Assembly (NCBI GenBank): GCA_030523765.1
Contig: JAUNHX010000001.1
Location: 1 to 64,000, forward strand
Direction: 5' to 3'
Length of the DNA: 64,000 bases
Origin: Bacteroidales bacterium
GTDB lineage: Bacteria; Bacteroidota; Bacteroidia; Bacteroidales; P3
Both the position numbers and the translations under genes were made by a program. Below are positions 1 to 57,415 of the stretch, piece by piece; position 1 is the first letter of the stretch; each line of letters starts with the position of its first letter. The notes below the pieces were generated by a model. It worked only from the letters and a program-made list of their open reading frames with translations. It was not told where the DNA came from and ran no database searches.

Positions 1-55
1 AATCTGTTCGACAATCCCTTCAACATCGCTAGAAATGAATTTATAGAACCCACCT
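1..55 (+). repeat. Right-hand end of dispersed repeat (partial copy)
   Basis: Bases 1-51 match 202-252 with one mismatch (position 33), so this is the tail of an element whose body lies before the window. It ends in TATAGAACCCACCT, the terminus also seen at 57286-57415 on the other strand. No coding frame runs through it. Confidence 0.85.
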
Positions 56-254
56 CGGTGGATTCTATAAATTCACCGATTAAACAAAAAAATAATGATA
101 ATGGGTAATATGAATCTTTTCAGCGCTTTTGAAGTCTTGTCGACATCTTGCTGCTTGTCACTCGGTTGCATAGCCCGCTATGCGCCCTCGCTTCGCACAG
201 CAATCTGTTCGACAATCCCTTCAACATCGCTAGGAATGAATTTATAGAACCCAA
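56..254 (+). repeat. Dispersed MITE-like element, copy 1
   Basis: A non-coding element of about 199 bp lies directly behind the partial copy, giving a tandem pair. Its left end (GGTGGATTCTATAAA) and right end (TTTATAGAACCCA) are imperfect inverted repeats. The centre has a perfect hairpin, GCATAGC-CC-GCTATGC, at 168-183. A shorter reverse-strand copy is at 57286-57415 and a diverged copy is at about 30927-31143. No transposase frame is inside, so any movement would need help in trans. Calling it mobile is inference from the copies. Confidence 0.8.
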
Positions 255-277
255 CTAAAACTCTTTATAATAATCAT

Positions 278-5550: not shown

Positions 5551-5562
5551 TAGAACCCACCT
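5551..5562 (+). repeat. Solo terminus of the dispersed repeat
   Basis: TAGAACCCACCT is identical to the right end of the elements at 1-55 and 57286-57415. It sits alone in the 46-base gap before metG. A chance 12-base match in this window is unlikely, but a solo end cannot prove a former insertion. Confidence 0.4.
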
Positions 5563-10905: not shown

Positions 10906-13900
10906 TTATTTAACGATCACTTTCTTAACAGCGGTAGCACCCGACTTGGTGGTGAGACGGAGCATGTAAGCGCCCGATACCTGGTTAACGTTCACCATAA
11001 TGGTGGAGCGTTCCATAGGCATCTCCATAACCTTACGGCCACGGATGTCGAACATTACGAGGGTAGCGCCTTGCAGCTGCGATTCATCAAGTGTGGTTTC
11101 AACCTTCATCATATTGCCAGAAGCAACAGGATTAGGAGCAACGGTGAAGGTGACTTCGAGAGCGTCGACGTCATCGATACCATCGTTACCGAAGCAGATA
11201 GTGTTAGAAGCAACCATTACATTCTCAATGGGTACCATTACATAATAGCAGCCAGAGAGGTCAGCATAGTTGTCTTCGTTGAAGTAATCAAGGGTAGCAC
11301 CGTCGATGGCAACACCATCCTTGTACCACTGATAGGAATCGTAATCGACACGTTCGCCAGATTCCTTACCTTCAGGATAGTGGTTCAGCATAAGAACCTT
11401 GCCATTGTAAGCAACGATCTCAGGCAGAGGCTTGGTGTTGCTAACGATAGTGAGGTTGAGAGTTACAACCGAGTCGCAACCAGCAGCATTGGTACCAGTC
11501 CAAGTGTAAGCGCCAGTAGCGGTATAGGTTGTGCCGTGCCAATCATAGGAACCAACAGCCTGTACAGTCTCAGAACCAGTGTTGCTGTAGTTGATGGTTA
11601 GGTGGAGGGTAACCACCGAGTCGCAACCGTGAACAGTGGTGAGGGCAGCAGTGTAGTCGCCCGAGACAGTATAGGTAGTACCATTCCAAGTGTAGCTGTC
11701 GCAAGCGGTAACAGTTTCAGAATTTACAACCGAGTTGTAGATGGTGAGCTGAAGCGTGATAACGCTATCGCAACCATTGGCAGCGGTGGTAGTGTAAGTT
11801 ACAGAACCGTTATTGATGCTGCTGCTATAGGTAACACCGTTGATCCAAGTGTAGCTATCGCAAGCGGTCTGTACGTCGGTCGACGAAGCAGAAGGCAGGA
11901 TAGTGAGGTTCAGGGTGATGACGCTATCGCAACCAGCAGCGTTGGTGATGGTATAGGTCGGAGTGTTGGTAGAAGCAGTATAGGTAACACCGTTCATCCA
12001 GGTGTAGCTATCGCAAGCAGAAACGGTCTGAGTAGCAGCCGAGCTATTGTTGATAGTCAGGTGGAGGGTAACAACGCTATCGCAACCAGCAGCATTGGTG
12101 GTGTTATAGGTAGCGGTGTTGGTAGAAGCGGTGTAAGTGGTACCATGCCATGTGTAGCTGTCGCAAGCGTTCACGAGGACGCTGCTCGAGGTGCTGTGGT
12201 TGATGGTGAGGTTGAGGGTAACAGTGCTATCGCAACCAGCAGCATTGGTGGTATGGTAAGTAGCATTGTTGGTAGAGGAGGTGAAGGTGGTACCATGCCA
12301 TGTGTAACTATCGCAGGCAGTAGCAGTAACGGTAGCGTTGGTGCTATTGTTGATAGTCAGGTAGAGGGTAGCGGTGGAGTCGCAACCAGCCACATTGGTG
12401 AAGTGGTGAGTAGCAACGGTGGAAGCATAATAGGTAGTACCATTCCAACTGTAGCTATCGCAAGCGGTAACGTTCTGAGAACCGGAGGTGCTGTTGTTGA
12501 TAGTGAGGTTGAGGGTTACAATGCTATCGCAACCATACTGGTCAGCAGCCGAGAGGGTGTGAGTAGGAGTATTGGTGGAAGCAGTGTAGGTGGTACCATA
12601 CCAAGTGTAGCTATCGCAAGCGATGACGGTCTGAACACCGGTGGAAGCACCACGAACGGTGAGGAAGAGGGTCATATTGCTATCGCAACCAGCAGCATTG
12701 GTAGCAGTATAGGTGTATATACCAGAGTTGGTGTAGGTATTACCATCAGCCCACTGATAGCTGTCGCAAACAGTAACGTTCTGCGTAGAAGCAGTGCTGT
12801 GGTTAACCGTGAGGTTCAGGGTAACTACGCTATCGCATCCATCAACAGTGGTGAGGGTTACGGAAGGCGTGTTGGTCGAAGCAATGTAAGCCTGACCATT
12901 GAGAGGCCATACGTAGCTGTCGCAAGCCACATGCGTTTCGGTAGAAGCGGTGCTGTAGTTAACAGTGAGGTTGAGGGTAATGGTGCTATCGCAACCAGCA
13001 GCATTGGTGGTGTGGTATACAGCGCTATTGTTAGAAGCAGTGTAGGTTACACCATTGAGCCAAGTGTAGCTATCGCAAGCGGTCTGAACATCGGTACCAA
13101 CAGTGCTATTGTTGATAACGAGGTGGAGGGTTACGATGCTATCGCAGAGGTATGCGGTAGAGAAGGTATCGGTAGGAGTATTGGTGCTAGCCCAATAGGT
13201 TACACCATTGGTCCAAGTGTAGCTATCGCAAGCAACGATGTTATCGATGGAGGTAGCCGAATAATGAACAGTGAGGTTCAAGGTAACTACGCTATCGCAT
13301 CCTACTGCATTACCGTTAGCATAGGTATACTGAGCGGTGTGGTTCGAAGCGGTGTAGGTGGTTCCATGCCATGTGTAACTGTCGCAAGCAATCACGTTTT
13401 CGGTACCATAGGTCTTGTGGTTAACAACGAGGTTGAGGGTAACAACCGAATCGCATCCATTAGCGTTGGCACCAACGAGAACGTGTACAGGACCATTGAT
13501 CGAGTAGTTATAAGTATTACCATCCATCCAAGTGTAGCTGTCGCAAGCCACCTGGCTGTCAACACCGTAGGTCTTGTAGTTAACCGTCAGGTTGAGGGTG
13601 ATGATACTATCGCAACCATACTGGTTGGTGTAGGTAACAAAGTCAGTGTTGTTAGAAACATTGTACATCTGACCGTTTTCAGCCCAAGTGTAGAGGTCGC
13701 AAGCGGTTGCATTGAATACCATATGGTCGGAAGCGTTAACAGTCAGGTTGAGAGTAACGGTGCTATCGCAACCAGCATTGGTAAGCAGAACAACAGGACC
13801 ATAGGTACCCGTAGTGGTGTAGGTGTTGCCATTGGCACCCCAAATGTAGCTATCGCAAGCGGTCTGAACGTCAGTGTAAGCTACGCTATTGTTGATAACG

Positions 13901-16900
13901 AGGTTGAGCTTCATTACGCTATCGCAACCAACAGCATTCTTAACGATGGTGCTGTAATTGCCAGAAGTGGTGAAGCTGTTCGTCTGAGGATTCGAGCCAT
14001 CGAAATCAGCAACATTCCAAACATAGGAATCGCAAGCAGTAACACTGGAGGTACTGGAGGTAGAACGATTGATAGTCAGATCGAGAGTAACGATCGAGTC
14101 GCAACCGTTAACATCAGCACCAACGAGGGTGAACTGAGGACCAGTGATAGAGTTAGTATAGGTATTACCATCGATCCAAGTGTAGGTATCGCAAGCCACC
14201 TGAGAGTCAGTACCATTGGAGGTATAGTTGATGGTCAGGTTGAGGGTAATAGTACTATCGCAACCATACTGGTTGGTCAGGGTTACATAGTCGGTATTGT
14301 TAGAAGCAAGGTAGTTGTGACCATTCTCAGCCCAAGTGTAAACGTTACAAGCGGTAGCGTTGAACAAGGAACCGTTGGAGTAGTTAACGGTGAGGTTCAA
14401 GGTAATTACGCTGTCGCAACCATACTGGTTGGGGATGGTGAACTGAGGAGTATTGGTAGAAGCGGTATAGGTAATACCATCAATCCAAGTGTAGGTATCG
14501 CAAGCAGTCTGTACATCGGTGTAAGCAGTAGCGTTACGGATTACGAAGGGCTGACGATAAACGGTATCGCAACCAAGTAAACCAGTAGCTTGGTACTCGA
14601 TGGTAGTGTCGCTTGTGATAGTGTAGTTAACACCGTGGAAGAGATAATTGTAAGGCAGGTTAGCTGCGCAAACTTCGATGGTATCAGTAGCGGTGAACTG
14701 GTTGATAGTGCTAGTTCTGAAGGGCTGAGTGATAACGGAGTCGCAACCATACTGGTTTACAATAATGGTGGTAGCTACGGAGTCGCCATAGAAGGTGGCT
14801 GCCAAGAAGTGACCACGAGGCATGATTCCGGTGTAGGTAGCAGGATTGTACTTGTAAGCAAGACGATAGTTGAGTTCATCAACATACCATTCGTATACAG
14901 GATTGCAAGATACAACCTCGGGCATTGCCTTATAGGTGGTAGGCAGAACGCGAACGTTAATCTTATAGATAGTATCGATGCAATCGTCGGTAGGATCTGT
15001 GGGAGTTCCCATGATGTCTTTCCAAACGGTATCGAGGATGGTGTAGAGACCATCAACGAAGTAATGCCACTGTTTGGTAGTATCACCGTAGAACATGGTA
15101 ACTGACTTGTAGGTCATATCGGTACCTAGACAGATCATAGTATCGGTGGTAGGATTACCATCGAAGCCAACGAACATAGGAGTATCGATAACGGGAGTCT
15201 GAACTTTGAGCTTGAAGTACTGGATGCTATCGCAAGTGGTAACAGGGTGAGCCGTTACAAGACGATAGGTGCCGGCAGCTACAAGGTTGGTATCGGTACC
15301 ATCATAATTATAGGTGTAAGGCAGAGCAGCCTCGCAGATAAGGATGGAATCGTAAGTTACAACACTATCGTTGATAGTCAGGTCGAGGTAAACGATGCTA
15401 TCGCAACCAGTGTTAGGATTGTTGTGGAGAGCATACGAGGGCGAGTAAGGAGCGTGGTAGCTCTGGGTGAAGGTACCAACGGTAACGGGGGTACTATCAA
15501 ACTCGTAGAGAGTCCAAGTATAGCTATCGCAGTTTTCGCCGGCGAAGTCGATACCGTAGGTGTGACGGCTCTTGATGAGCTGCAGACGGAGAACGGTGTC
15601 GATAGGACCTTCGGTATAGTAGGAAGCGATGATAGTATCAACGAATGCGCTATCGTTGTAGATATCGGAAGCGTTGACGAACTTACGGTTAACCTGATCC
15701 CAAGTATAAGTCTTGGAGTTAACAGGCCAAGTGTAGGAGTCTTCGCAAACGTATACCAAAGTGTCAACATAGTGAGGAGCCATGAGGTGCAGAGCAACGG
15801 TCAGAACACTGTCGCAACCATTGAGAGCACTAGCGTGGATCTCGTTGAGGTAAACAACGGTATCGGTGGTAACCTCTTTGAATACAAAGTGGTTGGAAAC
15901 CTCGTTGATATCGTAAGCATCGGTAGCAGGATTGTAGTTGGTGTGAGCAATGTTGTGTGCTATAGCTGCTGTAGCATTAGCATCAATCCAGTAGTATTCC
16001 ATAACACCAGGAACAGTGTTGGTATTGTAAGCAACGGTGGTGTCATAGCTGCTTCTTACAACGGTGAGGTTGAGGGTTACAACGCTATCGCAGTTGTGAC
16101 GATAAGAAGCGCCCTGCATTACATAGGTAGGAATAGTAGTGCTTTCGGTATAGGTTACACCATTAATCCAAGTGAAGTCATCGCAAGCAAGTTCATAGTC
16201 GGTACCATAGATACGACGCAGCTGGAAGAGCTCAGCGTGATATTTCACAGGATAGTTACCGCGAGCGGTAGCAGCAGGATAGAGAACGGTGTAATCAATA
16301 ATGTAGGTAGTATCGAGGTCCATGTTAACATGGATCAAGTTAATCTGAATACCATTAGCTGTTGCATCGATATCCATAGCATTGGTTGCTGCATCGAAGA
16401 GGACGTTAGCAACGGTGGTGCTATCGAGGGTGTAAACAAGCTGTTCAGCGCAAACGGTGTCAATACCGAGGGTATCGTAGTTGTGGATAACAGCAATGTT
16501 GAGATTAACAACACTATCGGCAACAGTCATGCCAGTGTAATGCTCCATGTCGTACACCAAAACGGTATCAAACGAAGCAGTATGGGTAGTATTGGTCATC
16601 ACAGAGTCGAAGTAGAAGTCGTTACCATCGTAGGTGAATACCCAGTGGGTATCGGTACCGGTGATACGTTCAATTTCGCTCATATAGACAACGGTATCTA
16701 CAGTAGTATTGACAGTCTGGTAGTCATAAATCAGATGAACGTTGTAAACGCTATCGCACCAACGAGTGGTGAATTTATGGCTGAAGAGGGTGTCATAAAT
16801 GCTATCGTGCATAGCTGTACGAGCGAGACTGAAGTCAACATCGCGATTAACGATGGAATTTCCATCCTCACTATCACTGCTTACAGTGTAAATATAGCCA

Positions 16901-19900
16901 TTGGTTACATAGTACAGCGAGTCGGCATCGATAGTAATAGTATCGAATGCGCTAGTACCTTCTGCGAGGGTAAGCTCGAGACGGTCAACGCTGTCGAAGA
17001 TCTTGTTCTTCTGGAGGTGGTGGATCTCGGGATTAACGGTGATAGTATCGTATACGCCACCGGGACGAACCTCAAGATACCAGGGGTTCACATTAAGATG
17101 AGCATTGTCTCTGCTCAGGAAGATGAAGGTACGGGTACTATCGTAGAGGTTGGCGGTATCACCATTGAAGTAACCTCTGATAGTCCAGTTATACTGAGCA
17201 CAGGTATCAACATTCCAAGAGTTGATGTTACGACGACCTACAAGGAGACGTTGTACATGGTTGATCTGGCAACCATATTCATTAACATCGCCAGCCTCAG
17301 CATAAACGATCGTGGTATCGATCCATTCAGCCCAGCTAGGTACATTGTACATAACATCACGATAGAGGAAGTGAGCATCGCTATTGGTGATCAGACTGTT
17401 GGTGTCGAAGATAGCACCATGACCAATCATAGTAACAGTGATTACACTGTCGCAACCGTCAGCCTTAGCAACAGTTACATCGAAAGTGCTGCTCGTAACT
17501 TCGTTGGTATCGGGATAATCAAGATAGGTGTTGAAGTTAGCGTAGAAGTCGGCCGTATCGTTGATGGTGTAAGCAACGGAGTTGTCACCATTCGAGAAGG
17601 TCATAGGCAGAGTAGGTAATTCGCAGTAGTGAACGGTATCCTTAGCGGTGGTACCAGTGTGGATTTCACTGAACTCAATAGTAACGATAGAATCGCAACC
17701 AGCCACAGTAGCAAGGGTATCGATATAAATGAAGGCCTCGGTAGCAGGATCAGGAGTGATCTGACCAGCAGGGATAGAGATAAGGCCATTGGTATAGGGA
17801 GCGAATTCGCAGTGTTCTTTCACACTGAGGGTCTGTTTGTAGATAGGATTAACAGTGAGCTGCAGATTTACGATACTGTCACAACCAGTGATGGAGGTGA
17901 AAGTAATGTTGGTATCAATCAAAGTAGAACCGTCAGCAGCAACGATCGTAAGGGTATCAACACCATAATATTTGGTAGCGTCACCATATATAAAGGTATG
18001 GGTCGAAGCAGTTAGATCGTTAGGATTGAAGAGAACACAAGTGTCTTTCGCATCGATAGCAGGAGTAGTGGTATAGTCGTGGATGAAGAGATCGAGGATG
18101 ATAACATACATACTATCGACATTCTTCATAGAGGTAGCACCATCGAGAGAGAACTGAACGGTGTCATGAACCAAGGTAAGAGGATCGGTGACAAATTTCA
18201 GGGTATCGGTGTACTGAGAAGGAGTAGGATTATTAGGAGTAGCAGCAGTCAAAGGAATTTGGAAGCCACGATACTCATATAAGCCGTTATTGTCGAACTG
18301 CTCAGCGCAGAGGTGCATGGGGCTATTGGTTTCGGGGAGATAGTAGAGGAACCAGGTGCTATCGCAGCCATTCACTTCAGAGGTTCTGTTGTGGAAAGGA
18401 GGATTGAGCACGCTAGTGCTATCGGAGTAGGTGTTCTGGTAGGGAGCCTCAGGCCAATCGATAGACTGATTTGCCCATACACGAACAATGTGGTATTGAC
18501 GCGAAATAATATCAACGGCACGACGATCAATACTGTCGCAACCTGCTACAGTATAAGTAGTCGATTCGATGAGGGTGGTGTCGCGGGTATAATAAACACC
18601 TTGATAGTAACCACCACAAACGGTATCGCGAGGCATGTCGAACAACGTCAGATCAATGATGTGGAGACTATCGCAACCAGCAGCGGTAACGCCTGCTACA
18701 CTATGAGTATCGAGAGCAGAAACCGTAGTGGTATAGTCGTAAACGCTATCGTTAGCGGCCCACTCATAGAAGCCGATAGCTTTTACACAATAGTTCTGCT
18801 GGAGAACGGGGTGAAGCGTAAGGGTAAGATAGATTGCACTATCGCAACCAGCCTCGTTTACTACATGTAAGGTGTCTTTATAGAGACGAGCTGAGCTGTT
18901 AACAGCAATCGTATGGGTAGAATCTAAAGGATTCGAACCACCGAAATCGGCAACGCTCCAAGTGTAAGTCTCACATCCAGTAACAGCAGCCATAACGGTA
19001 TCGGTGCTGTAACGAACAGTCAGGTTGAGAGTCATCACGCTATCGCAACCAACAGCATTCAAAACGGTATCGGTATAAACACCGGTAGCGGTATAGGTGT
19101 TGGTCTGGGGGTTGGCACCACCAAAGTCAGCGATGTTCCAAGTATAGGTATCGCAAACATCCTGTGCTTCGGATGAGGTGCTGGAGGCATTGATGGTGAG
19201 GTTAAGGGTAATCACACTGTCGCAACCTGCAGCATTCTCAACGGTAACATTATATGCGCCAGTAGTAGTGTAAACGTTGCTTTGGGGATTAGCACCACCA
19301 AAGTCGGCAACATTCCAAGTATAGGTATCGCAAGCCGTAACGTCTACACTAGCAGCACTGCTAGCATTGATTGTAAGATGGAGAGTGAAAACGCTATCGC
19401 AATTCTCATTGTTGGGGTTAGGACCAACGAAATTATAATCGCCAGAAGCAGTATAGGAAGTACTGTTTACAGGCCAAGTGTAGCTATCGCAAGCCGTAAT
19501 GGTATCAGGGATAACTGTCGACTGGCCAATATGCAGTGTCATAACACCAATATGTTCGCAATGCTCAGTGTAGAGAGCGTTCATATTGGGAAGATCAGTA
19601 ACAACATTCGTGTCAACAATCAAATACGAAAGCATCGTATCGTGGTCGGCACCCGAATTAGCATAAAGTCCTTGAATATCGAATTTGGTACCACCATAGT
19701 GTTGGTCAACAGTAGGAGCAGTACCCTCTAAATAATAGTGCTTCTGCAGCGGGTCAGATGCATAATAGTCGAAGTTCCAATAATAGGTAGGATCAACACC
19801 CTTGCATACGGAGTCGATCATGGTGTGGTAGCAGTAACGGTTGAAATCATAAGCATATTTTATGTTCCAAGCCGCATGGGGGTTGTTGTTGGCACCTGCA

Positions 19901-20499
19901 GCAAGGGCAATATTGTTGACCGAATTGTCGGTCAGCGGAGAAGAGCCCCAGCCAGTCAGATACCGGCGTGCGCTAGTAGTGGTGTTTTCAACACCTACCT
20001 GCACGTTGATAGAACCAGTCAGGTTGTCCATCAAACCATAACGGAATTCGATGGTACCCAGACGATTCATCATCACCTGGAAATTGAGCGTATCAGTGCC
20101 CTTGGCGACATGCCATTCTATTACAATCACAGAGTCATTTACTAACGACGCAAACGAAGTGTCGGTCGCAGCAAAGCCTGCACTGTAGTAGAGCGGCTTG
20201 ATCACATTGGTTCCGATAGTCAGCGCACCGTTAAGATCGGCGGTGAAAGTCGGAGCCGTCAAGTCGTTGGCATCACCGAGGTCCATAGTGAAACCTGCGG
20301 GAGCACTGACAGTTGCAGAAGTAGTTCCAATATACCATACTACATTAGGATCATTGATCTCGAACAGGGAGGTCATACCCTGAGTCGATCGAGATACTGT
20401 GTAGTCGTTAAATGAAACCACCTGCTGTGCTCGGGAAGCTAGTGGCAAGATCATTGCTACTGCTAACAGAGCTCGTAAAAAGAATCCTTTTACTTTCAT
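10906..20499 (-). CDS. Giant T9SS-secreted tandem-repeat surface protein 1
   Basis: A 3197-residue protein. A signal peptide (MKVKGFFLRALLAVAMILPLASRAQ) exports it through Sec. The last ~75 residues (APNPV, then MFDIRGRKVMEM, then SGAYMLRLTTKSG and KKVIVK) are a type A T9SS sorting domain, so it should cross the outer membrane and be released or attached to the cell surface. An unassigned beta-rich N-terminal domain (about 25-200) is followed by diverged repeats (about 310-650), a long unique region, then about 20 tandem units (about 1987-3020) of roughly 52 residues. Each unit has the core ACDSYTW and, about 25 residues later, GCDSVVTLNLTV, so two Cys-Asp-Ser sites per unit. Adhesion or a surface fibre is the likely role, by inference. 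Its longest antisense open frames (992 and 790 codons) are shadows of repeat codon bias. Confidence 0.9.
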   Translation of the reverse strand: MKVKGFFLRALLAVAMILPLASRAQQVVSFNDYTVSRSTQGMTSLFEINDPNVVWYIGTTSATVSAPAGFTMDLGDANDLTAPTFTADLNGALTIGTNVIKPLYYSAGFAATDTSFASLVNDSVIVIEWHVAKGTDTLNFQVMMNRLGTIEFRYGLMDNLTGSINVQVGVENTTTSARRYLTGWGSSPLTDNSVNNIALAAGANNNPHAAWNIKYAYDFNRYCYHTMIDSVCKGVDPTYYWNFDYYASDPLQKHYYLEGTAPTVDQHYGGTKFDIQGLYANSGADHDTMLSYLIVDTNVVTDLPNMNALYTEHCEHIGVMTLHIGQSTVIPDTITACDSYTWPVNSTSYTASGDYNFVGPNPNNENCDSVFTLHLTINASSAASVDVTACDTYTWNVADFGGANPQSNVYTTTGAYNVTVENAAGCDSVITLNLTINASSTSSEAQDVCDTYTWNIADFGGANPQTNTYTATGVYTDTVLNAVGCDSVMTLNLTVRYSTDTVMAAVTGCETYTWSVADFGGSNPLDSTHTIAVNSSARLYKDTLHVVNEAGCDSAIYLTLTLHPVLQQNYCVKAIGFYEWAANDSVYDYTTTVSALDTHSVAGVTAAGCDSLHIIDLTLFDMPRDTVCGGYYQGVYYTRDTTLIESTTYTVAGCDSIDRRAVDIISRQYHIVRVWANQSIDWPEAPYQNTYSDSTSVLNPPFHNRTSEVNGCDSTWFLYYLPETNSPMHLCAEQFDNNGLYEYRGFQIPLTAATPNNPTPSQYTDTLKFVTDPLTLVHDTVQFSLDGATSMKNVDSMYVIILDLFIHDYTTTPAIDAKDTCVLFNPNDLTASTHTFIYGDATKYYGVDTLTIVAADGSTLIDTNITFTSITGCDSIVNLQLTVNPIYKQTLSVKEHCEFAPYTNGLISIPAGQITPDPATEAFIYIDTLATVAGCDSIVTIEFSEIHTGTTAKDTVHYCELPTLPMTFSNGDNSVAYTINDTADFYANFNTYLDYPDTNEVTSSTFDVTVAKADGCDSVITVTMIGHGAIFDTNSLITNSDAHFLYRDVMYNVPSWAEWIDTTIVYAEAGDVNEYGCQINHVQRLLVGRRNINSWNVDTCAQYNWTIRGYFNGDTANLYDSTRTFIFLSRDNAHLNVNPWYLEVRPGGVYDTITVNPEIHHLQKNKIFDSVDRLELTLAEGTSAFDTITIDADSLYYVTNGYIYTVSSDSEDGNSIVNRDVDFSLARTAMHDSIYDTLFSHKFTTRWCDSVYNVHLIYDYQTVNTTVDTVVYMSEIERITGTDTHWVFTYDGNDFYFDSVMTNTTHTASFDTVLVYDMEHYTGMTVADSVVNLNIAVIHNYDTLGIDTVCAEQLVYTLDSTTVANVLFDAATNAMDIDATANGIQINLIHVNMDLDTTYIIDYTVLYPAATARGNYPVKYHAELFQLRRIYGTDYELACDDFTWINGVTYTESTTIPTYVMQGASYRHNCDSVVTLNLTVVRSSYDTTVAYNTNTVPGVMEYYWIDANATAAIAHNIAHTNYNPATDAYDINEVSNHFVFKEVTTDTVVYLNEIHASALNGCDSVLTVALHLMAPHYVDTLVYVCEDSYTWPVNSKTYTWDQVNRKFVNASDIYNDSAFVDTIIASYYTEGPIDTVLRLQLIKSRHTYGIDFAGENCDSYTWTLYEFDSTPVTVGTFTQSYHAPYSPSYALHNNPNTGCDSIVYLDLTINDSVVTYDSILICEAALPYTYNYDGTDTNLVAAGTYRLVTAHPVTTCDSIQYFKLKVQTPVIDTPMFVGFDGNPTTDTMICLGTDMTYKSVTMFYGDTTKQWHYFVDGLYTILDTVWKDIMGTPTDPTDDCIDTIYKINVRVLPTTYKAMPEVVSCNPVYEWYVDELNYRLAYKYNPATYTGIMPRGHFLAATFYGDSVATTIIVNQYGCDSVITQPFRTSTINQFTATDTIEVCAANLPYNYLFHGVNYTITSDTTIEYQATGLLGCDTVYRQPFVIRNATAYTDVQTACDTYTWIDGITYTASTNTPQFTIPNQYGCDSVITLNLTVNYSNGSLFNATACNVYTWAENGHNYLASNNTDYVTLTNQYGCDSTITLNLTINYTSNGTDSQVACDTYTWIDGNTYTNSITGPQFTLVGADVNGCDSIVTLDLTINRSTSSTSSVTACDSYVWNVADFDGSNPQTNSFTTSGNYSTIVKNAVGCDSVMKLNLVINNSVAYTDVQTACDSYIWGANGNTYTTTGTYGPVVLLTNAGCDSTVTLNLTVNASDHMVFNATACDLYTWAENGQMYNVSNNTDFVTYTNQYGCDSIITLNLTVNYKTYGVDSQVACDSYTWMDGNTYNYSINGPVHVLVGANANGCDSVVTLNLVVNHKTYGTENVIACDSYTWHGTTYTASNHTAQYTYANGNAVGCDSVVTLNLTVHYSATSIDNIVACDSYTWTNGVTYWASTNTPTDTFSTAYLCDSIVTLHLVINNSTVGTDVQTACDSYTWLNGVTYTASNNSAVYHTTNAAGCDSTITLNLTVNYSTASTETHVACDSYVWPLNGQAYIASTNTPSVTLTTVDGCDSVVTLNLTVNHSTASTQNVTVCDSYQWADGNTYTNSGIYTYTATNAAGCDSNMTLFLTVRGASTGVQTVIACDSYTWYGTTYTASTNTPTHTLSAADQYGCDSIVTLNLTINNSTSGSQNVTACDSYSWNGTTYYASTVATHHFTNVAGCDSTATLYLTINNSTNATVTATACDSYTWHGTTFTSSTNNATYHTTNAAGCDSTVTLNLTINHSTSSSVLVNACDSYTWHGTTYTASTNTATYNTTNAAGCDSVVTLHLTINNSSAATQTVSACDSYTWMNGVTYTASTNTPTYTITNAAGCDSVITLNLTILPSASSTDVQTACDSYTWINGVTYSSSINNGSVTYTTTAANGCDSVITLQLTIYNSVVNSETVTACDSYTWNGTTYTVSGDYTAALTTVHGCDSVVTLHLTINYSNTGSETVQAVGSYDWHGTTYTATGAYTWTGTNAAGCDSVVTLNLTIVSNTKPLPEIVAYNGKVLMLNHYPEGKESGERVDYDSYQWYKDGVAIDGATLDYFNEDNYADLSGCYYVMVPIENVMVASNTICFGNDGIDDVDALEVTFTVAPNPVASGNMMKVETTLDESQLQGATLVMFDIRGRKVMEMPMERSTIMVNVNQVSGAYMLRLTTKSGATAVKKVIVK

Positions 20500-20635
20500 T
20501 TTTACTGTTTTTTTGTGGTTAATACATTAATTAATTATACAATTATTTTTATTTTCTAACTTTACTGTTATGTACCTAATATTTAAATTCTTTAACACTT
20601 ATTTCAATAACAATTACTTCAACTCTTTTGAGCAA

Positions 20636-20744
20636 ATTGCACGATACACGCCCAAAATTCGGACATTTTAAGTACCCGAAACGCATTGTCAACAATACCG
20701 ACAATGCCAAACTGAAATGGTCCAATCCTTTCAGACTGTGCAAT
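20636..20744 (-). promoter_or_regulatory. Structured 5' leader of giant gene 1
   Basis: The promoter at 20802-20830 implies a leader of about 300 bases. Inside it, an outer pair ATTGCAC/GTGCAAT (20636-20642 with 20738-20744) encloses a perfect hairpin GCATTGTC/GACAATGC (20683-20707). It may be a cis-acting RNA element; I do not recognise a known riboswitch. Confidence 0.4.
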
Positions 20745-20801
20745 ATACAATCTCATTCGATCTATTACTATGCGGTCTTAGTACACAAACTAAACCAATT
20801 G

Positions 20802-20830
20802 CAAAGATACAAATAATTTTTATTCTGCAA
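20802..20830 (-). promoter_or_regulatory. Promoter of giant gene 1
   Basis: On the minus strand: TTG (20828-20830), 18 bases, TATCTTTG (20802-20809), a close fit to the Bacteroidota sigma-A consensus. Transcription should begin near 20798. The stretch from here to 21000 holds nothing else I can assign. Confidence 0.8.
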
Positions 20831-21007
20831 AAAAAAGTTCTAAAAAGTAAACAACAGGCTATTGTTAATTACTTTGGCCGTTTAAAAAAAGGAAAAGGAA
20901 AACATATACATTCGCCTCTGTAAATATAATAAAATGTATTACTCTTTATTATTATATTAAAGGAAAATAATTCGTGCTACTCCTCGCTCTAGGGTAATAA
21001 TAAAAAA

Positions 21008-21039
21008 AGAGAGGATTTCCTGATGGAGAAATCCTCTCT
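21008..21039 (-). terminator. Terminator of giant gene 2
   Basis: 12-bp arms AGAGAGGATTTC/GAAATCCTCTCT with an 8-base loop, followed on the minus strand by a T-run (21002-21008), 60 bases past the stop. Confidence 0.9.
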
Positions 21040-21098
21040 GTAAGTAGAAAAAGCAGAGTGGGACTATTGGGTTAGTCCCACCTACTGAGTGTAGCATC

Positions 21099-24000
21099 TT
21101 AGTGCTTTACCACACGACGTACAATTGTGCCTTCGGGCAGCGTTACACGGAGGGTGTAAGCACCTGCGGGCAAGTTGCTGAGATCGATAACATTGCTGTT
21201 CTCGAATACAGCTACCTTACGGCCGTAGAGATCAATCACTTCTACCATCGAAACCTCATCGGTAGAGAAGGTCAGCTTGCCTGCGGTGGGGTTAGGATAG
21301 ATTGTGATAGCATCGAGTGCCGAAGCCTCATCAATACCTACATAGTTGACAGTCAGCGTCAGTACCACAGTCGAGTCACAGCCTTCTGCTGTCTCACCCA
21401 CCCAGGTATATTTACCGCTCTCAGTGTAGGTTTCACCATTCCAAGTGTAGCTATTGTTGGCAGTAGCCTCCGTGTAGGTAGTAACACTGTAGTTGATGGT
21501 GAGGTCGAGATTCTTAGTATCCATACATCCGTTCTCGCCTACAGTATAGTAAACGGGAGCAGTAGTAGAAGCATAGTAGGTCTTACCATTGATCCAAGTG
21601 TAGTTATCACAAGTTTCAACAACATCAGTAGTTGTAGTACCGTGATTGATGGTAAGGTTGAGGGTAATCACACTGTCGCAACCAGCAGCATTATTGATCG
21701 TATAGGTTGGCGTGTTGGTAGAAGCAGTGTAGGTAACACCATTCATCCAGGTGTAGCTATCGCAAGCCGAAACGGTCTGCGTACCACTGGAAGCAGTATT
21801 AATAGTAAGGTGTAGCGTAACAATCGAGTCGCAACCATTCATATTAGCACCACTGAGGGTATGGGTAGCACTATTGGTATTAGCAGTATAGGTGGTACCA
21901 TACCAGGTATAGCTATCGCATGCACTTACATATATATTACCATAAGTGTTGGAGACCATTGTAAGAACTAACGTAACTACACTATCGCAACCATTAGCAG
22001 CAGTAGCAGTATAGGTATAATTACCTGCAGCATTATAGGTAGTGCCATTCCAGGTATAGCTACCACAACCTTGCGCTGTTATATGGTTGGAAACAGAATG
22101 ATTCACAGTCAAATTGAGGTTAACCGAACTGTCGCATCCGTGAACTGTAGTATAGTGATAGTTATAAGTTCCCGACAATCCATAAGTATTACCATTCCAT
22201 ATGTAGCTATCGCAAGCAGTAGCTGCTATATTGGTGGTAACAGAAGGATGGATGGTAAGATGCAAGTTCACAATACTATCGCAACCATTGGCGTTGCCTC
22301 CAGCAATGGTACGGGTAGGTGTATTGGTAGAGGCGGTATAGGTAGTGCCACGCCATGTGTAGCTATCGCATGCTTCTACATAATAGAATCCTGTTGTGGC
22401 GTGATTGATCGTTAGGTGCAGTACCACTGTGCTATCGCAACCATTGGCGTTAGCTCCTGCCATCACATACGTAGGTGTATTAGTAGAGGCGGTGTAGGTG
22501 GTTCCATGCCAGGTGTACTCCTCGCATGCCGATACTGCTACTACCGATTCTGTAGGCTGGTTGATGGTCAAGTGCAGGGTCACTACACTATCGCAGCCTG
22601 CTGCATTGGTCAGCGTCATCGTAGGAGTGCTCGTTGAAGCAGTATAGGTGGTACCATTCCATGTGTAGCTCTCGCATGCCGATACTGTCTCTACACCCGT
22701 GTTGCTCTGACCTAGGGTCAGACGGAGGATCTGTACACTATCGCAGCCTGCTGCATTGGTGATGGTGCTCTGTGCCACTGTCGAAGTGGTGTAGGTTACG
22801 TTGTTCGTTGCCCAGCTATAGCTGTCGCATGCTGTTACCACATCCTCGCGTGTTGTGCTGTAACGCAGATTCAGCGCAAGGGTGATCACACTGTCGCAGC
22901 TGTGTGCATTGGGCATCACTACTGTTGCTGCCTCATCGGGCACTGCATAGTAGGTCTGTCCGTTCAGCGGCCAAGTGTAACTGTCGCAGGCGGTGGCCTC
23001 ATAGGTGCTTGCCGTAGGCTGGTAGATGGTCAGGTTCAGTTGATATACGCTATCGCAAATTCCGTAGAGTGCTCCCTCTACTGTATCGGTATAGATACCT
23101 GTCTCGGTGTAGGTCGTGCCTCTCCAATCATAGGAGACACAGGTTGACATGTTCCGTACGCTCAATGCGTCAGGACAGCCTTCCTCCCATACGCCATAGA
23201 GGACGATATCGCTATCCATCACTATCACATCACCTTCGTCATAGGTAGCTACAGTTGCATCTGCCTCCAGGGCCCAGCCCGTGAGGCGGTAACCGAAGCT
23301 CATATAACGGTTAGCGATAATGGTGTAGTTGTCTCCAGCACAAATTCTCGGTGTAGGCATCGTGCCCGAGTAGTTGGAGCGGTTTGCATGGTAGGTTACA
23401 CTATACTTAGGATTAACCGTAAGGTTCAGCGTCACTACACTATCACAGCCTTCTGCATTGGCTCCTGCGAAGGTGTATACGGGGGTATTGGTCGACTCGG
23501 TATAGGTCGTGCCGTCTACCCAGGTATAGGTAACACAAGCCGTCACTACATCGGTATAGTAGCTGGTGTGACCTATCGTCAGGTTCAAGGTCACCACACT
23601 GTCGCAGCCTGCTGCGTTGGTCAGTGTATAGGTGGCTGTGTTGTTGCTCGAGGTGTATGCGTTGCCATCAATCCAAGTGTAGCTATCGCATGCTGCTACC
23701 TCATCGGTTGCGGCACTGCTGTAGTTCACCGTTAGGTTGAGGGTGATTACGCTATCGCAGCCATTAGCCGATGCGTAGGTTACTGTGGGTGCGGTGGTGC
23801 TTGCTGTATAGGTATTGCCATCTTCCCAGGTGTAGCTATCGCATACCGTCTGGACGAAGGTACTATAGTTGCTATACTTCACCGTCAGGTTCAGCGTCAC
23901 TACGCTATCGCATCCTACTGCATTGGTCAGCGTATAGGTGGCCGTATTGTTGCTCGAGGTGTATGCGTTGCCATCAATCCAAGTGTAGCTATCGCATGCC

Positions 24001-27000
24001 TCAATAACATCGGTGGCTGTTGTGCTGTAGTTCACCGTCAGGTTCAGGGTCACTACACTATCGCAGCCATACTGGTTGGCTAGTGTTACTACTGGCTCGC
24101 TGGTGCTTGCCGTGTAGGTTGTGCCATTCCAGGTGTAGCTATCGCATGCTGTCACTGTATCTATTACATTGTCGCCATAGCTTACTATCAGGTTCAGGGT
24201 CACCACGCTATCACATCCATACTGGTTGGTCAGCACAACGTTATCGGTTGTGTTGCCTACCGTATAGGTTGTTCCATTGAGAGCCCATACGTAGCTATCG
24301 CATGCGGTAGCTGCGAAGATGGTGTTATCAGAATGGTTCACTGTCAGGTTCAAGGTCACCACACTGTCACATCCTGCTGCGTTGGTCAACGTATAGGTAG
24401 GTGTATTGGTCGTCTCATAGTAGGTAATGCCGTCTATCCATACCAGCGAGTCGCATACCGTGCGGGTATCGATGCCTGTGCTGCTGTTCTTCACAGTCAG
24501 GTTCAGCGTCACTACGCTATCGCAGCCTGCTGCGTTGGTCAGTGTAGCCACTGCTGTGCTATTGCTCTCGGTATAGACGCTGTCGTTAGCGGTCCATGTG
24601 TAGCTATCGCATGCTACCTGGGTATCAGTAGCGCTGCTAGTAGCACGTACCTCTACACGAACGGCTGTTGCCATCTGGTTGTAGACACCTTCGGACTGAT
24701 ACTCGGTCTGTACGTTACCATAGTAGGTGCCGTTGGTTGTAGGTGCGAAGCTATAGCCTGTGCTTTCGTTGTCGCAGACGGAGAGCTCTACATAATTCTT
24801 AGTAGAAACGTAGGAGGTCACTGCCTCGGAGCTGATACCTGCTGCACACACGTTGCGTGCTGCCCACATATACGTTGTGGCACTATCGAGGTTAGCGAAG
24901 GTGTAGCTGCTATTCGAGGTGCTCATAGCCTCGTTATCCCAGTCGATGTTCTCCAATGTCTGAGCATCTACCTCGGCTGCGGGCACGATGTAAACCTGAT
25001 GGTTCAGTGCTACTGCGTTGTCGGTCCATGATGCGGTTGCGCTCGTGTAGTCAGATACTGAGAGAGCGTTATCGGGTGCTGCACAGTTCACGCAGTTCAC
25101 CAGTTGCATCACGTTACGGAATGGGGTACGTAGACCTGATCCCAGTGATGTTACGTTGATAGTAGCATCGGAACGCAGTACGAGTGTACGGCTTGCATCT
25201 TCAACGCTGGCAGCGAATTTGTTCTGGACACTGCCGTTCTGGTTGTTGTTCTCGAGGAAGGCTACAACGATGTTCTTCGTAGTATCGGTATAGTCGAACG
25301 GGGTATCGAAGATGATCTGGTTCCAGCTATCGGCAGTCATCTTGAACGAGCCGGTATATACCTCGGTGAGGCTGCTCTGAGGAACATAGTCTGTGCTGTT
25401 GCTGAACGAGTTCTTCTCGGTCATACCCAGATAGATGGTTACCTGCGGTTTAGCAGTGTAGTTCTCCGTATGGGTGTAGAGCAGGCGAAGGGCGTTGATG
25501 GAGGCCTTCGTTCCTATCTCGCTGGCCAAGATGATCTGTTGTGAGTAGGTGTTCTTGTAGTTGGCCGTTACGGGCAGCAAGTAGATTGTTGTGTCGCTGG
25601 TTCCGATGGTATCGATAAACATGTTGTTGCAGATATCGGTCGTTAGCGTCACCTCGTTGCTCCACTCGCTGTACTCGCCATTGGCTGAGTCGCAAACATT
25701 GCGCACTGCGAAGGTGTAGTTGGTTACCAACTCGGGATTCTCAAAGATGTAGGATCCGTCTGCACGACGATCGGATGCATTGACTATCATCGTATCGGTC
25801 TGTCTGTTGCTAGCTGCCGAATCGATGTGGTTCCAGGTGTAGCGTACCTGCCACTGATCAACGCTACTCTTGTGGCCATTCCAGTTCAGACGAATACCGT
25901 CATCGGTGGATACAGCAAGCATATCGTCAGGTGTAGGACACTCGGGCATCAGATCGAGAGTTACATTATCTATATAGATGCGGTTGTTCGATGCGGGTGC
26001 TATCTGGAAGGCTAGATAGTTGCCTTCACCATTGTAAGCATCGAGCATCACGTTGAAGCTAGTATAACTAGTAGGCACATCAACAGTTTTGAGGCCTACG
26101 AATGTAGTAGCATCAGTAGGATTGGTCATCACACCCACAGTGAGCGGAGTAGTATTGTTAGAAGAACGAGCATAGAACGTTACTTGGTTGTTGTTCATAG
26201 GCAGAGAAGCGTCTACCTGATTCATTACTACATACTGTGTTTCGGTAATGGTATCATCCTGACAGATACGGAGTGCACGATTACCAGCATAAGTATAGGA
26301 GCTAGAAATCATTGCACCATAGGTATTATCAGTATAGTTGTGGTTGCCAATATAAGTCCAGCAATTAGCGAAATTATAGACTACATCGGCTTCGAAGGTA
26401 GCAGTGTAAGGCAGAGCGGTGATAGTACCACAAGTGGTGGTGACCTGAGCAGCATCACTCCAAGCGCTGTTGTCGTCATCCTCAGGAGTAGCACCACAAA
26501 TATTACGAACGTAGAAGTCGTAAATCTGATTGGGCTGCAGACCTGTAATAGTAGCAGGATTGGAGGTAACTGTTGTCATTGTGCCTTCACCGTGTGCAAA
26601 GCCATCAGTACCATATTCAATCTGCCATGTAGAAGCGCCTTCCTCATTGTTGGTCCATGAGAGTTCAGCCGAAGCACCATCGGTGCCTAGGGTGGCAACA
26701 AGGTAGGTAGGCTTGTGGCAAGTAAGACGCTTGAAGACAATATTGTCGACTGCAGCAGGAGGATTGGTACCTGAACTTCCATCGTTTCTCCAATAGAAGA
26801 CCAAACGATACAGACCGCATTGTTCTCCCGTCAAGTTGATCACACCGTCTAAGTTGGTCCACTCATCATTCAAGTTCAGTTTTCCACCATCGAGAGTAAT
26901 CGCACCTGTGGGGATAGCGCTAGAAGAGTATGAACTGCTACCAAACGAGGTACCAGCACCAGTATAAGTAAGCGTGGTAGTAACAGGAACAAGAGCAACG

Positions 27001-30000
27001 CGCATAAAGTCCCAAGAACTTTCACCATTGCCTCTCCAATCGAACGAATACTCATATTCGCCCGAATCGGCTAAGTTGATCTGTACATAGGCGTATGCAT
27101 AGGAATAAGAGTAGTTGATATAACCATTGGTGGTACCATCGTTGGTAATATAGAGGCTATTGCCACTAGTACCCATGCGGGCATCAGAACCAATCATCCA
27201 GTAGTTAGGCTGACCATCCTGCATCTGAACCCAAGTGTACCTGTAACTTGCAGCACCGCTGTTGAAGTCGCAAGTGTAGGGCAGAGAAACCGTCATAGGA
27301 TTAGTAGCGAAGGTCATAGTAGCCGTATTAGACATACCATCGGTATTACCGCAGTTGGACTGGACAGTAACATAGTAGGTAGTATTAGGAGCACCATTAG
27401 CTATAGTATAAGAGGTACCATTTACATTATAAGAAAGGGTATCAGTTGTACCAGCCACAACAAACTTCAGTATATAGTTCAGTTCGTTGGCATTCAGATA
27501 GTCAACAGTACTACTACCTGCATTCCAAGTAATCGTGGCGCCATTGAGACCAATATTAATTGCTCTTAAACTATCAACGGGCAAACAGGAAGGTAAGGTA
27601 GTAGCCGAAACAGTGGTGAATGCGCTATCGGTGGCGCTGCACATAGCATAAACACGGAAATTGTAGTCGGTTTCGCTTAGAAGACCCGTAACCTCATATT
27701 CCATATCGGTAACGGTAGCAGCATAGGTATAGTCGTCTTCATCGGCAGTCTTGTAGTAAACCTTCCACTCGGTTTCGTTCAAACCAGGGATCCAACTCAG
27801 TTGAGCAGCGTGATGGGTAATGTTATCGACACTAACTGCAGGTTGACCACAAGTAGGAGGTGTGTCGCAAATTTCTACATAGAACGCCATATTGGGGCGA
27901 TTAGACATCTCGCTAGCACTAGAAGTAGAACTGGTGTAATCGTTAGCATAACCAACAACACTCGAAGTAGGAGCCGAATGATAATAGAAGGAATACGAAC
28001 TACCATCATAGTGGCCTGAATTATCATAGATAGCCATGACTAGGTTGCTTTCGCCACTATATTCAAACGGAGTGGTAAAGTTGAATCGATTCCAACCCTG
28101 AGTGCAATTCAAACTGCCAGAATAAACCTGGGTCATACTGCTTACAGGGATATAGTTATTGGCCGTCAACTCGGTATTAGACGTAACTGCTAAATAAATA
28201 GTTACATCCGTCTTGGCCGACATGGAAGAAGAATAGGCATACTGGAATTCAACACCAGTAATAGAGCCTGCCGTTACTTCCTGAGGCGTTAACAGATATT
28301 CATAGAAGGAATAATTATAATAATCGTTCACAGGACCATAGTTGTAAGAAGTATTTGTTCCTTCACCTATCTGACCACGTTCAGCACAAGACAAAGCCTC
28401 GGTAGTCAAAGAGATTGCCTCATAAACACTCTCATCATTGCCCGAGCAAATAGCCTTTACGCGTACATCGTAGGCAGTATTAGCGGAAAGACCCGTGAGG
28501 AGGTAAGTAGAGTCGGTTGTAGTTCCAGCCACAGTCCAGTCAGAAGCCGACTGCAGTTTGTATTCCACTTGAGCACTAACATAGGTACCATAAGAACTGC
28601 TATTCCAACTCAGTTGGGCAGCACCCGAGGTAAGAGCATCAACAGCCAAATTATCTACATGACCGCAAGAAGGTATTTCTTCGACAACTATGTCGTCAAT
28701 AAAATAATAGCCCTCATAACCAGTCTCTACTATGCGAAATGCAATCCTAGAACCCGTTCCATTATAACCATCAAAAGAAACATTATATTCTACAAACGAA
28801 GAGGTTAACTCTGATGCAAGTAAAGTCTGTATGGGTATAAATACACTATCTTCCATTACACCAACCTGCATTGTGTCAGGAGACGAAGAAGAATATTTAC
28901 CCATATAGGTAATCATCAAAGTATTTATATCTTGCATTGTAGGAAGAGCAATAATATTCTCTTTACTATATGAGTAATAATAATAAGCATACAGTGCTAA
29001 AGAATGAGAACCAGACAGATATTGCGAAGAACTAACCGAAGGATAGGAAGCATAATAGCTAGCATAAGAAACATAGTTCTTCCAACAACTAGGAATAGTA
29101 CCAGTGCTTGTGCTTTCGAAATCCTCTACATAAGGAACAGAGGTATAATCGCAATCGGTGGTGAAGCTGCCTTCAGTCCACTCACTTACACCATCAGAAC
29201 CACCGCAGTTGGCCTGTACATATATATAATAAGTAGTATTAGCCGAAAGAGATGAGAGCGACGCCGACGCAGAAGTAAGATCATTCACATAAGTGGTATC
29301 GGTGCTACCATCGGCCACATATTTCATATTCCAAGCCGTCTCGGCATCACCTGCTGTCCATGTTACAGAGGCCGTAGTAGAGCCTGTAGCAGTAGCAGTA
29401 AGATGCGTTACAGCAGGACAATTGGGGAGCACACAAGGAGTAGCATTGGTATAGCTTGCGTCATCGGATGTACTACCATCACTGAACGAGAATACAACAG
29501 CCGATGTTTGGTCATGCAACTCGAAAGAGTTTTCATCAGGATAACTACCTGCTGAATAAGTAAAAGTAACCGACTGACCAGTACAAATATCCACATCGGT
29601 TGTTAACGAGAAACCACTCGCAAGGGTGTAGTCCTGCGACCATGCACCCTGCGTTACATTAATAGAACCACCGTTCCAGCCATCACCATAGGAGTCGGTG
29701 AAAATCATTTGATAAGTACAAGCGTCATCACAACGCGACGTAGTGAAGCTACCCGAGGTCCATCTACTTACACCATCGGATCCACCGCAGTTGGCCTGTA
29801 CATATACATAATAAGTAGTGTTAGCAGATAGTGAAGTAAAAGAATAAGATTCGGAGGTAAGACCGTTAACCGTCGTGGTATCGGTTTCACCATCCTCAAC
29901 ATACTTCAGATTCCAAGCAGATTCGCTGCCACCAGCAGTCCAGCTGATTGTAGCACTAGTAGCTTGCAAATTACTAGCAAGGATGCCCGTAGGACGGGGA

Positions 30001-30926: not shown

Positions 30927-31143
30927 AGGCGAGTTCTATCAATTCACTAATTAAAGGTAACCTCTAATAATTCCACGTATGAAAAGGAATAATAATAACC
31001 ATACTTTCAGTGCTTTTGGATTGATTTATGCATCTTGCTCAGTTTCACTCAGTCATATAGCCCGCTATACTCCTTCGTTCAACGGAGCAATCTGCTATAA
31101 ATCTTCTTCAAAATCACATTGAAGCAATTTTTAGAGGTTACCT
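30927..31143 (+). repeat. Dispersed MITE-like element, diverged copy 3
   Basis: Its left part (GTTCTATCAATTCAC, then ATTAAA) and core (CAGTGCTTTTG, CATCTTGCT, TATAGC-CC-GCTATA, GCAATCTG) parallel the element at 56-254. Inner terminal repeats AGGTAACCTCTAA (30955) and TTAGAGGTTACCT (31131-31143) are exact inverses yet differ from those of copy 1, which suggests paired change of both ends. It lies in the ~890-base gap between giant gene 2 and msrC; no gene is present. Confidence 0.75.
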
Positions 31144-31272
31144 AAACAAAAAAAACGATCATACGACATAGGAATCTGTATTGCACCCCAAAGATGGATA
31201 TTATTTTTTGAGACTCTTGCTATGAAGATTGAATTGTCTTTTTATTTGCCTCTTTATCGGCTTGCTGCCTCC

Positions 31273-57285: not shown

Positions 57286-57415
57286 AGGTGGGTTCTATAA
57301 AATCATTTTGACAAGCAGCAAGATGTCGACAAGACTTCAAAAGCGCTAAAAAGATTCATATTTCCCATTATCATTATTTATTTTTGTTTAAGCGGTGAAT
57401 TTATAGAACCCACCT
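57286..57415 (-). repeat. Dispersed MITE-like element, copy 2
   Basis: This is a 130-base copy on the minus strand. Both ends are AGGTGGGTTCTATAAA-type inverted repeats and the left two-thirds match 56-145 closely. About 80 bases present in copy 1 (the region with the central hairpin) are missing. The A and G of its edge complete the TAG stop of the adjacent lipoprotein gene. Confidence 0.85.

Follow-up and report, generated by a model that had tools for sequence, protein, structure and literature searches.

Several families of miniature inverted-repeat transposable elements (MITEs) linked to the IS5 family of insertion sequences (IS), namely MITE239, MITE464/PgRS, MITE700 and BrickBuilt, have been described in Porphyromonas gingivalis (PMC4596501). 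Here we analysed a window of 64,000 nucleotides, positions 1 to 64,000 of contig JAUNHX010000001.1 in assembly GCA_030523765.1 of a Bacteroidales bacterium (G000:C20:1-64000 in our numbering), whose genome of 2.40 Mb is assembled in 56 contigs. A sequence-only reading of the window had noted a non-coding dispersed repeat with terminal inverted repeats (TIRs) at four sites, and we recovered the repeat at all four with slightly corrected coordinates. The elements are MITEs of two subfamilies, A and B, that share a quasi-palindromic core. With a probability of about 0.4, we suggest that this core, a DNA module whose tandem GA/GA loops are strand-specific, enhances mobility independently of the transposase and would have persisted across Bacteroidales by repeatedly acquiring the TIRs of unrelated IS (IS5_4, IS5_3 and IS1380); long-term descent would then run through the core and not through the ends. 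What is new here is the conserved core, together with its independence of the ends; the MITE itself is as had been held before.

The window opens inside the repeat. The assembly break falls within a right-end fragment of an A element (positions 1 to 54, plus strand; 98% identity to query positions 147-198), which is truncated by the contig start and linked by TC to a tandem, complete A element of 199 bp at 57 to 255 (plus strand; GGTGGATTC...GAACCCAAC), defined by reading the sequence and by the genome search; both copies had been recognised, with limits of 1-55 and 56-254. The left TIR of the complete copy (GGTGGATTCTATAAATTCA) occupies 57 to 75 on the plus strand, the right TIR (TGAATTTATAGAACCCAAC) 237 to 255 on the minus strand, and the core 116 to 238 on the plus strand (covariance model R2, 113.9 bits, E 1.2e-25). 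At 30927-31143, which had been taken for a further copy of the same element, the repeat is present and belongs to the other subfamily: a complete B element of 187 bp (30956 to 31142, plus strand; TIR GGTAACCTCTAAAAATT), with its core at 31003 to 31125 (plus strand; R2, 109.5 bits, E 1.6e-24), is nested in an A relic. The left portion of this relic lies at 30928 to 30951 and the relic resumes at 31147 to 31177, both on the plus strand; the flanks joined across the B element match A at 45/56 positions over the junction, and TAAA is duplicated at 30952 to 30955 and 31143 to 31146 (plus strand). The copy placed at 57286-57415 was found in inverted orientation at 57287 to 57414 (minus strand) as an internally deleted A element of 128 bp that retains both TIRs, with TTAA on its left and TAAA on its right. 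The solo end proposed at 5551-5562 is an exact match to an 11-nt A terminus (TAGAACCCACC, 5551 to 5561, plus strand) followed by TTAA; it is a probable relic and, being so short, is weak taken alone. The MITEs in the window measure 128-199 bp, within the 50-1000 bp range of MITEs, and none holds a transposase frame, as had been stated.

Searches with both main copies showed that the host genome carries more than 60 copies of the repeat. The 199-base A copy found 47 matches, where fewer than about five would have spoken against a mobile family, and the B copy found 44. The 17-nt B terminus occurred 45+44 times in this genome against 2+3 for a reversed control pattern, and the 21-nt A terminus 25+25 times against 0; because these counts greatly exceed those of the controls, the repeat family lies far beyond chance. 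A and B differ in their termini (GGTGGGTTCTATAAATTCA in A and GGTAACCTCTAAAAATT in B) and are related in their interiors, and thus form two subfamilies. The B copies, 187 bp long, are ~97-99% alike, which indicates a recent burst of B, while the A copies are 75-99% alike, many are internally deleted, and A is an old, diverged subfamily. Copies were analysed as individual genome stretches, and since the A5 alignment was collected by a fixed motif, conservation of that motif was not used as evidence. About a dozen contig ends fall inside B copies, which accounts for the fragmentation of the host assembly; the repeats explain the breaks in this metagenome-assembled genome (MAG), and possibly those in many MAGs of gut Bacteroidales. 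At G000:C26:9600-10276 three A copies and one partial copy form a tandem array linked by TTA or TAA.

With the bounds of the B element taken as GGTAACC...GGTTACC, a perfect 4-bp target-site duplication (TSD) of TTAA, TAAA, TATA, TTTA or TGAA flanked 25 of 29 B copies. An A-like element (A2) is nested in a B copy in two cases (C46 and C28), with two different flanks to the right of the composite. When the joined flanks of the B copy at C50:4356-4542 were used as a 440-bp query, the match in the host was split into two parts ~185 bp apart, and the alignment ran continuously over the junction in at least 13 congeners (e.g. G126, G164, G112 and G172). Insertion is therefore shown by nesting in both directions and by an orthologous site that is empty in at least 13 congeners, so that the copies do not lie only in homologous positions lacking insertion polymorphism, the pattern named beforehand as adverse. 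Predicted frames contain none of the 28 B copies that were located; two copies adjoin or cut a frame. Another B element occupies the TATA site of a further B element close to a contig end (L074, G000:C44:1-96). A chimera (L011, G000:C26:8342-8533), bordered by TTAA at either end, has a left terminus of B type (18/18) and takes its body and right terminus from A; it shows a route by which ends may be exchanged. Mobilisation in trans, which the sequence-only reading had put forward, is supported by the TIRs, the 4-bp TSDs, the more than 60 copies, the nesting and the empty orthologous sites.

A transposase with a matching terminus, also anticipated, is encoded in the host genome. Its sole match to PF01609, on contig C27, scored 165.8 bits with NF033581 (transpos_IS5_4). 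The left end of this IS5 element (AAGGTAGGCTCTAAAAATTCA) is preceded by TTAA and matches the A terminus at 18/21 and the B terminus at 15/17 positions. The element has lost its right end, and another IS5 copy (C35) is internally deleted. Other solitary termini in the host are contig ends within B copies. Of 190 genomes of the family, 32 contain related transposases, and intact IS copies of ~1.3 kb in these relatives cover the A-type as well as the B-type terminus: L155, an IS5_4 element of 1325 bp with the TSD ATCA, has a right end identical to the B terminus (17/17), an IS5_4 element (L142) has A-type ends (GGTGGGTTCTATTTATTCA and AATTTATAGAACTCCCC), and another IS (L157) has TAAT duplications. 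The core was not found within the bodies of these IS, and similarity between MITE and IS is confined to the termini; the interior is thus not IS-derived, and lacks the origin from a parental IS that is usual, if not obligatory, for a MITE. It is probable that the A and B elements are MITEs linked to IS5-family IS and carry the shared core. IS982 was rejected as a driver: IS982 copies adjoin some MITEs (G137 and G034), but there the MITEs are inserted into IS982 and the termini do not match. Core-bearing MITEs stand in or beside IS982-family transposase genes at L124, L129 (G137:C84) and L131 (G034:C34). The host IS5 transposase itself (L135, C27:3404-4270) carries an extra palindromic insert of ~60-70 bp in frame (NVAQSESNGNLFLLPSQSNV), and similar-looking hairpin inserts occur within B or related cores at C9:3278-3438, L102 and L104; these are possibly a second small element of the Rickettsia palindromic element (RPE) type.

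The core has the form of an extended rod, broken by a single bulged base and by fixed internal loops that read TC/TC on one strand and GA/GA on the opposite strand. Those of A, B and A2 give a single long hairpin with interruptions, and members of different families, when folded singly, mostly give the same shape. Of 149 genomes of the family, 30 held relatives detected by a covariance model that was built solely from eleven host-genome copies (R1). These include elements whose ends are quite different: GAAACTGTTTAAATTT (with TAA duplications), CCCAAATCGGTCATTAG, GGCAACTTCTAAAAATTCC and GGCATGTTTTATAAATTT. The R2 model matched at least 14 of 295 genomes of the order Bacteroidales, in 10 families, a lower bound since 12 candidates per genome were scored. 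Across the phylum, R2 picked out, besides the host, only a single genome, which belongs to the same order, and had no match in ~389 Bacteroidota genomes outside the order; this shows that the model is specific. In a scan of named genomes, at least 119 records held the core, nearly all of them MAGs of gut or rumen Bacteroidales. No Rfam 15 family reached the gathering threshold in the window or hit the core at E<=1 (11 loci), and no match was found in plasmids, phages or viral contigs, the viral scan having used one exact pattern only. Weak core matches in two Clostridia-labelled contigs (L281 and L285) may come from misbinned Bacteroidales.

The ends found with the core are matched by further transposases. 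In G540, an IS5_3 transposase (L346) lies between ends of the GAAACTGTTTTGAATTG type, and a MITE that bears the core and has this terminus is 50 bp away; an IS1380 transposase (L363) lies between perfect CCCAAATCGGTCATTAG ends. The MITEs that share the core thus draw their ends from three or more transposase groups (IS5_4, IS5_3 and IS1380), and, to judge by the termini, these transposases would presumably act on them.

The pairing of the core has been maintained between families. Among 24 cores with several end types, standard pairs made up 87.3% of paired cells, compared with 62.3% in shuffled and 36-50% in slid alignments; two-sided changes numbered 174 against 60 (shuffled) and 25-43 (slid), and the covariation score was 0.573 against 0.180. 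Between A and B, the stems differ by 1 one-sided and 10 two-sided changes, all still paired. Over all sequence pairs with stem divergence >0.2, there were ~2.4-3.7 one-sided changes against 11-15 expected by independence, an expectation that ignores phylogeny and was applied to alignments fitted to the model. In nine old resident A copies, by contrast, 48 one-sided changes and 1 two-sided change were counted in the stems. These resident stems changed slightly more slowly than the loops (0.090 vs 0.128 changes per site), so that some residual constraint may act on them. Because pairing between families is kept by compensatory changes while resident copies decay by single changes, the comparison suggests that pairing is selected in the spreading lineage and not in resident copies, which would fit mobility rather than a function in the host. 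A role of the core in mobility, taken by itself, has close to an even chance.

If the core acted in the host as a structured RNA (an mRNA stabiliser, an RNase target, a terminator or a small RNA), the great stability of its fold (minus strand, mean z -6.7) and its GA/GA loops, which are common in RNA, would be expected, and other prokaryotic MITEs do make stem-loop transcripts (PMC10969869). However, neither strand shows a preference for G-U pairs: in three alignments, plus-strand cells numbered 21:22, 12:18 and 25:39 for G-U against A-C, and the G-U excess on reading the minus strand was small. This lack of preference for wobble, which a plus-strand RNA would favour, speaks for DNA over RNA. 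Plus-strand mismatches were pyrimidine-pyrimidine in ratios of 52:17, 47:4 and 86:10, corresponding to GA/GA and the like on the minus strand, and the minus strand folded more stably in 28 of 29 families with RNA and DNA parameters alike. The elements are also randomly oriented relative to flanking genes (8 vs 5), the resident copies decay, and Rfam offers no match. Host-level RNA function was rejected on wobble, gene orientation and resident decay, and we hold it to be rather improbable; a DNA hairpin or cruciform is preferred with modest confidence. Unlikely too, though less so, is the explanation that the pairing is a mutational by-product, one arm being corrected from the other by template switching during replication, with no selection. 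Such correction is established for bacterial quasi-palindromes, and the retention of Watson-Crick complementarity only, with no preference for wobble, agrees with it; but simple correction would erase the mismatched loops and the bulged base, which most families show again when folded individually, and the counts in resident A copies show them to be nearly uncorrected.

Two further explanations are very improbable. One is that the interior encodes a short protein: most A copies keep open a 47-aa frame (MGNRNLFSAFEVLSTSCCLSLGCIARYAPSLRTAICST...) that can be aligned with B, but no reading frame remains open across families, and coding was refuted for the superfamily. The other is that of repetitive extragenic palindromes or bacterial interspersed mosaic elements (REP/BIME) mobilised by a REP-associated tyrosine (RAYT, Y1) transposase. 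The intergenic position, the palindromic form and the conserved bulges resemble such repeats, and the sequence-only reading had named a REP-like family as an alternative to a MITE. That label found no support: REP/BIME repeats are palindromes of 20-40 nt with a GTAG/CGTC tag, no TSD and a RAYT gene, whereas the elements here are 128-200 bp long, bounded by long TIRs and flanked by TSDs of 3-4 bp, as under a DDE transposase, and IS with DDE transposases have the same termini (no search for a RAYT gene was made). Y1 transposases are not expected to leave TSDs.

In the explanation that we favour, an IS5-family DDE transposase (NCBIfam subgroup IS5_4) would act on the TIRs and duplicate an AT-rich target of ~4 bp (TTAA, TAAA or TATA). 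The core would promote mobility in cis, as a DNA module. In an element that is single-stranded or extruded into a cruciform, during replication for instance, the folded rod might draw the two termini together or be bound strand-specifically. The folded core could assist any transposase that recognises the ends, and new ends would be gained when neighbouring elements, or elements nested in one another, recombine, as the chimera L011 illustrates. Several points weigh against this explanation. The terminus search found no intact autonomous IS in the host, only the two damaged IS5 copies (C27 and C35), and as the B burst is recent, the driver IS may have been lost or left unassembled; a TIR type is not in every case matched by a transposase found in the genome that carries it. 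The pairing counts lean on structure-fitted alignments, to which the slid control and the single-sequence folds are only a partial answer, and the strand preference, seen with both parameter sets, does not separate RNA from DNA. Mobilisation is itself read from sequence comparison. Internally deleted copies without most of the core (57287-57414, L026 and L029) were also retained or moved, and the core may therefore enhance mobility rather than being essential to it.

Elsewhere in the window, a very large tract of ~150-bp repeats at 11438-30000, with at least 44 copies of a 46-nt unit, probably encodes one or more giant repetitive surface proteins.

Among known systems, the enterobacterial repetitive intergenic consensus (ERIC) is likewise a short intergenic imperfect palindrome with a conserved fold; to our knowledge, no cognate transposase of ERIC has been identified, whereas here IS partners were identified and the TSDs are clear. 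The P. gingivalis MITEs resemble the present elements in their Bacteroidales host, intergenic position, IS5-family-like termini and stem-loop potential, but have TIRs of their own (GAGACC.. and ACGTGAG..), and BrickBuilt contains internal 23-nt tandem repeats; we found in their description no core common to different transposase families (PMC4596501). A MITE of Cardinium is also maintained by an IS in a member of the Bacteroidota; it derives from IS982 (PMC9769881), while the present elements are linked to IS5 and IS1380. Our literature search found IS-linked MITEs in Bacteroidota and no core common to MITEs of different transposase groups, which is weak evidence of novelty because most subscription papers lay outside its scope. 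Whether non-autonomous elements can carry a cis-acting mobility structure of their own and change transposase becomes a testable question through the recurrence and strong covariation of this core. QMITE2, Chunjie, MITEAba12 and Correia are similar in size, TIRs, TSDs, the lack of a transposase gene and mobilisation in trans, but prokaryotic MITEs are usually internally deleted forms of their own IS (PMC10969869), and the core described here is not IS-derived and is common to MITEs of three transposase groups. While a MITE is normally treated as the debris of a single parental IS, across a bacterial order the same folded core is found here together with ends from three transposase groups.
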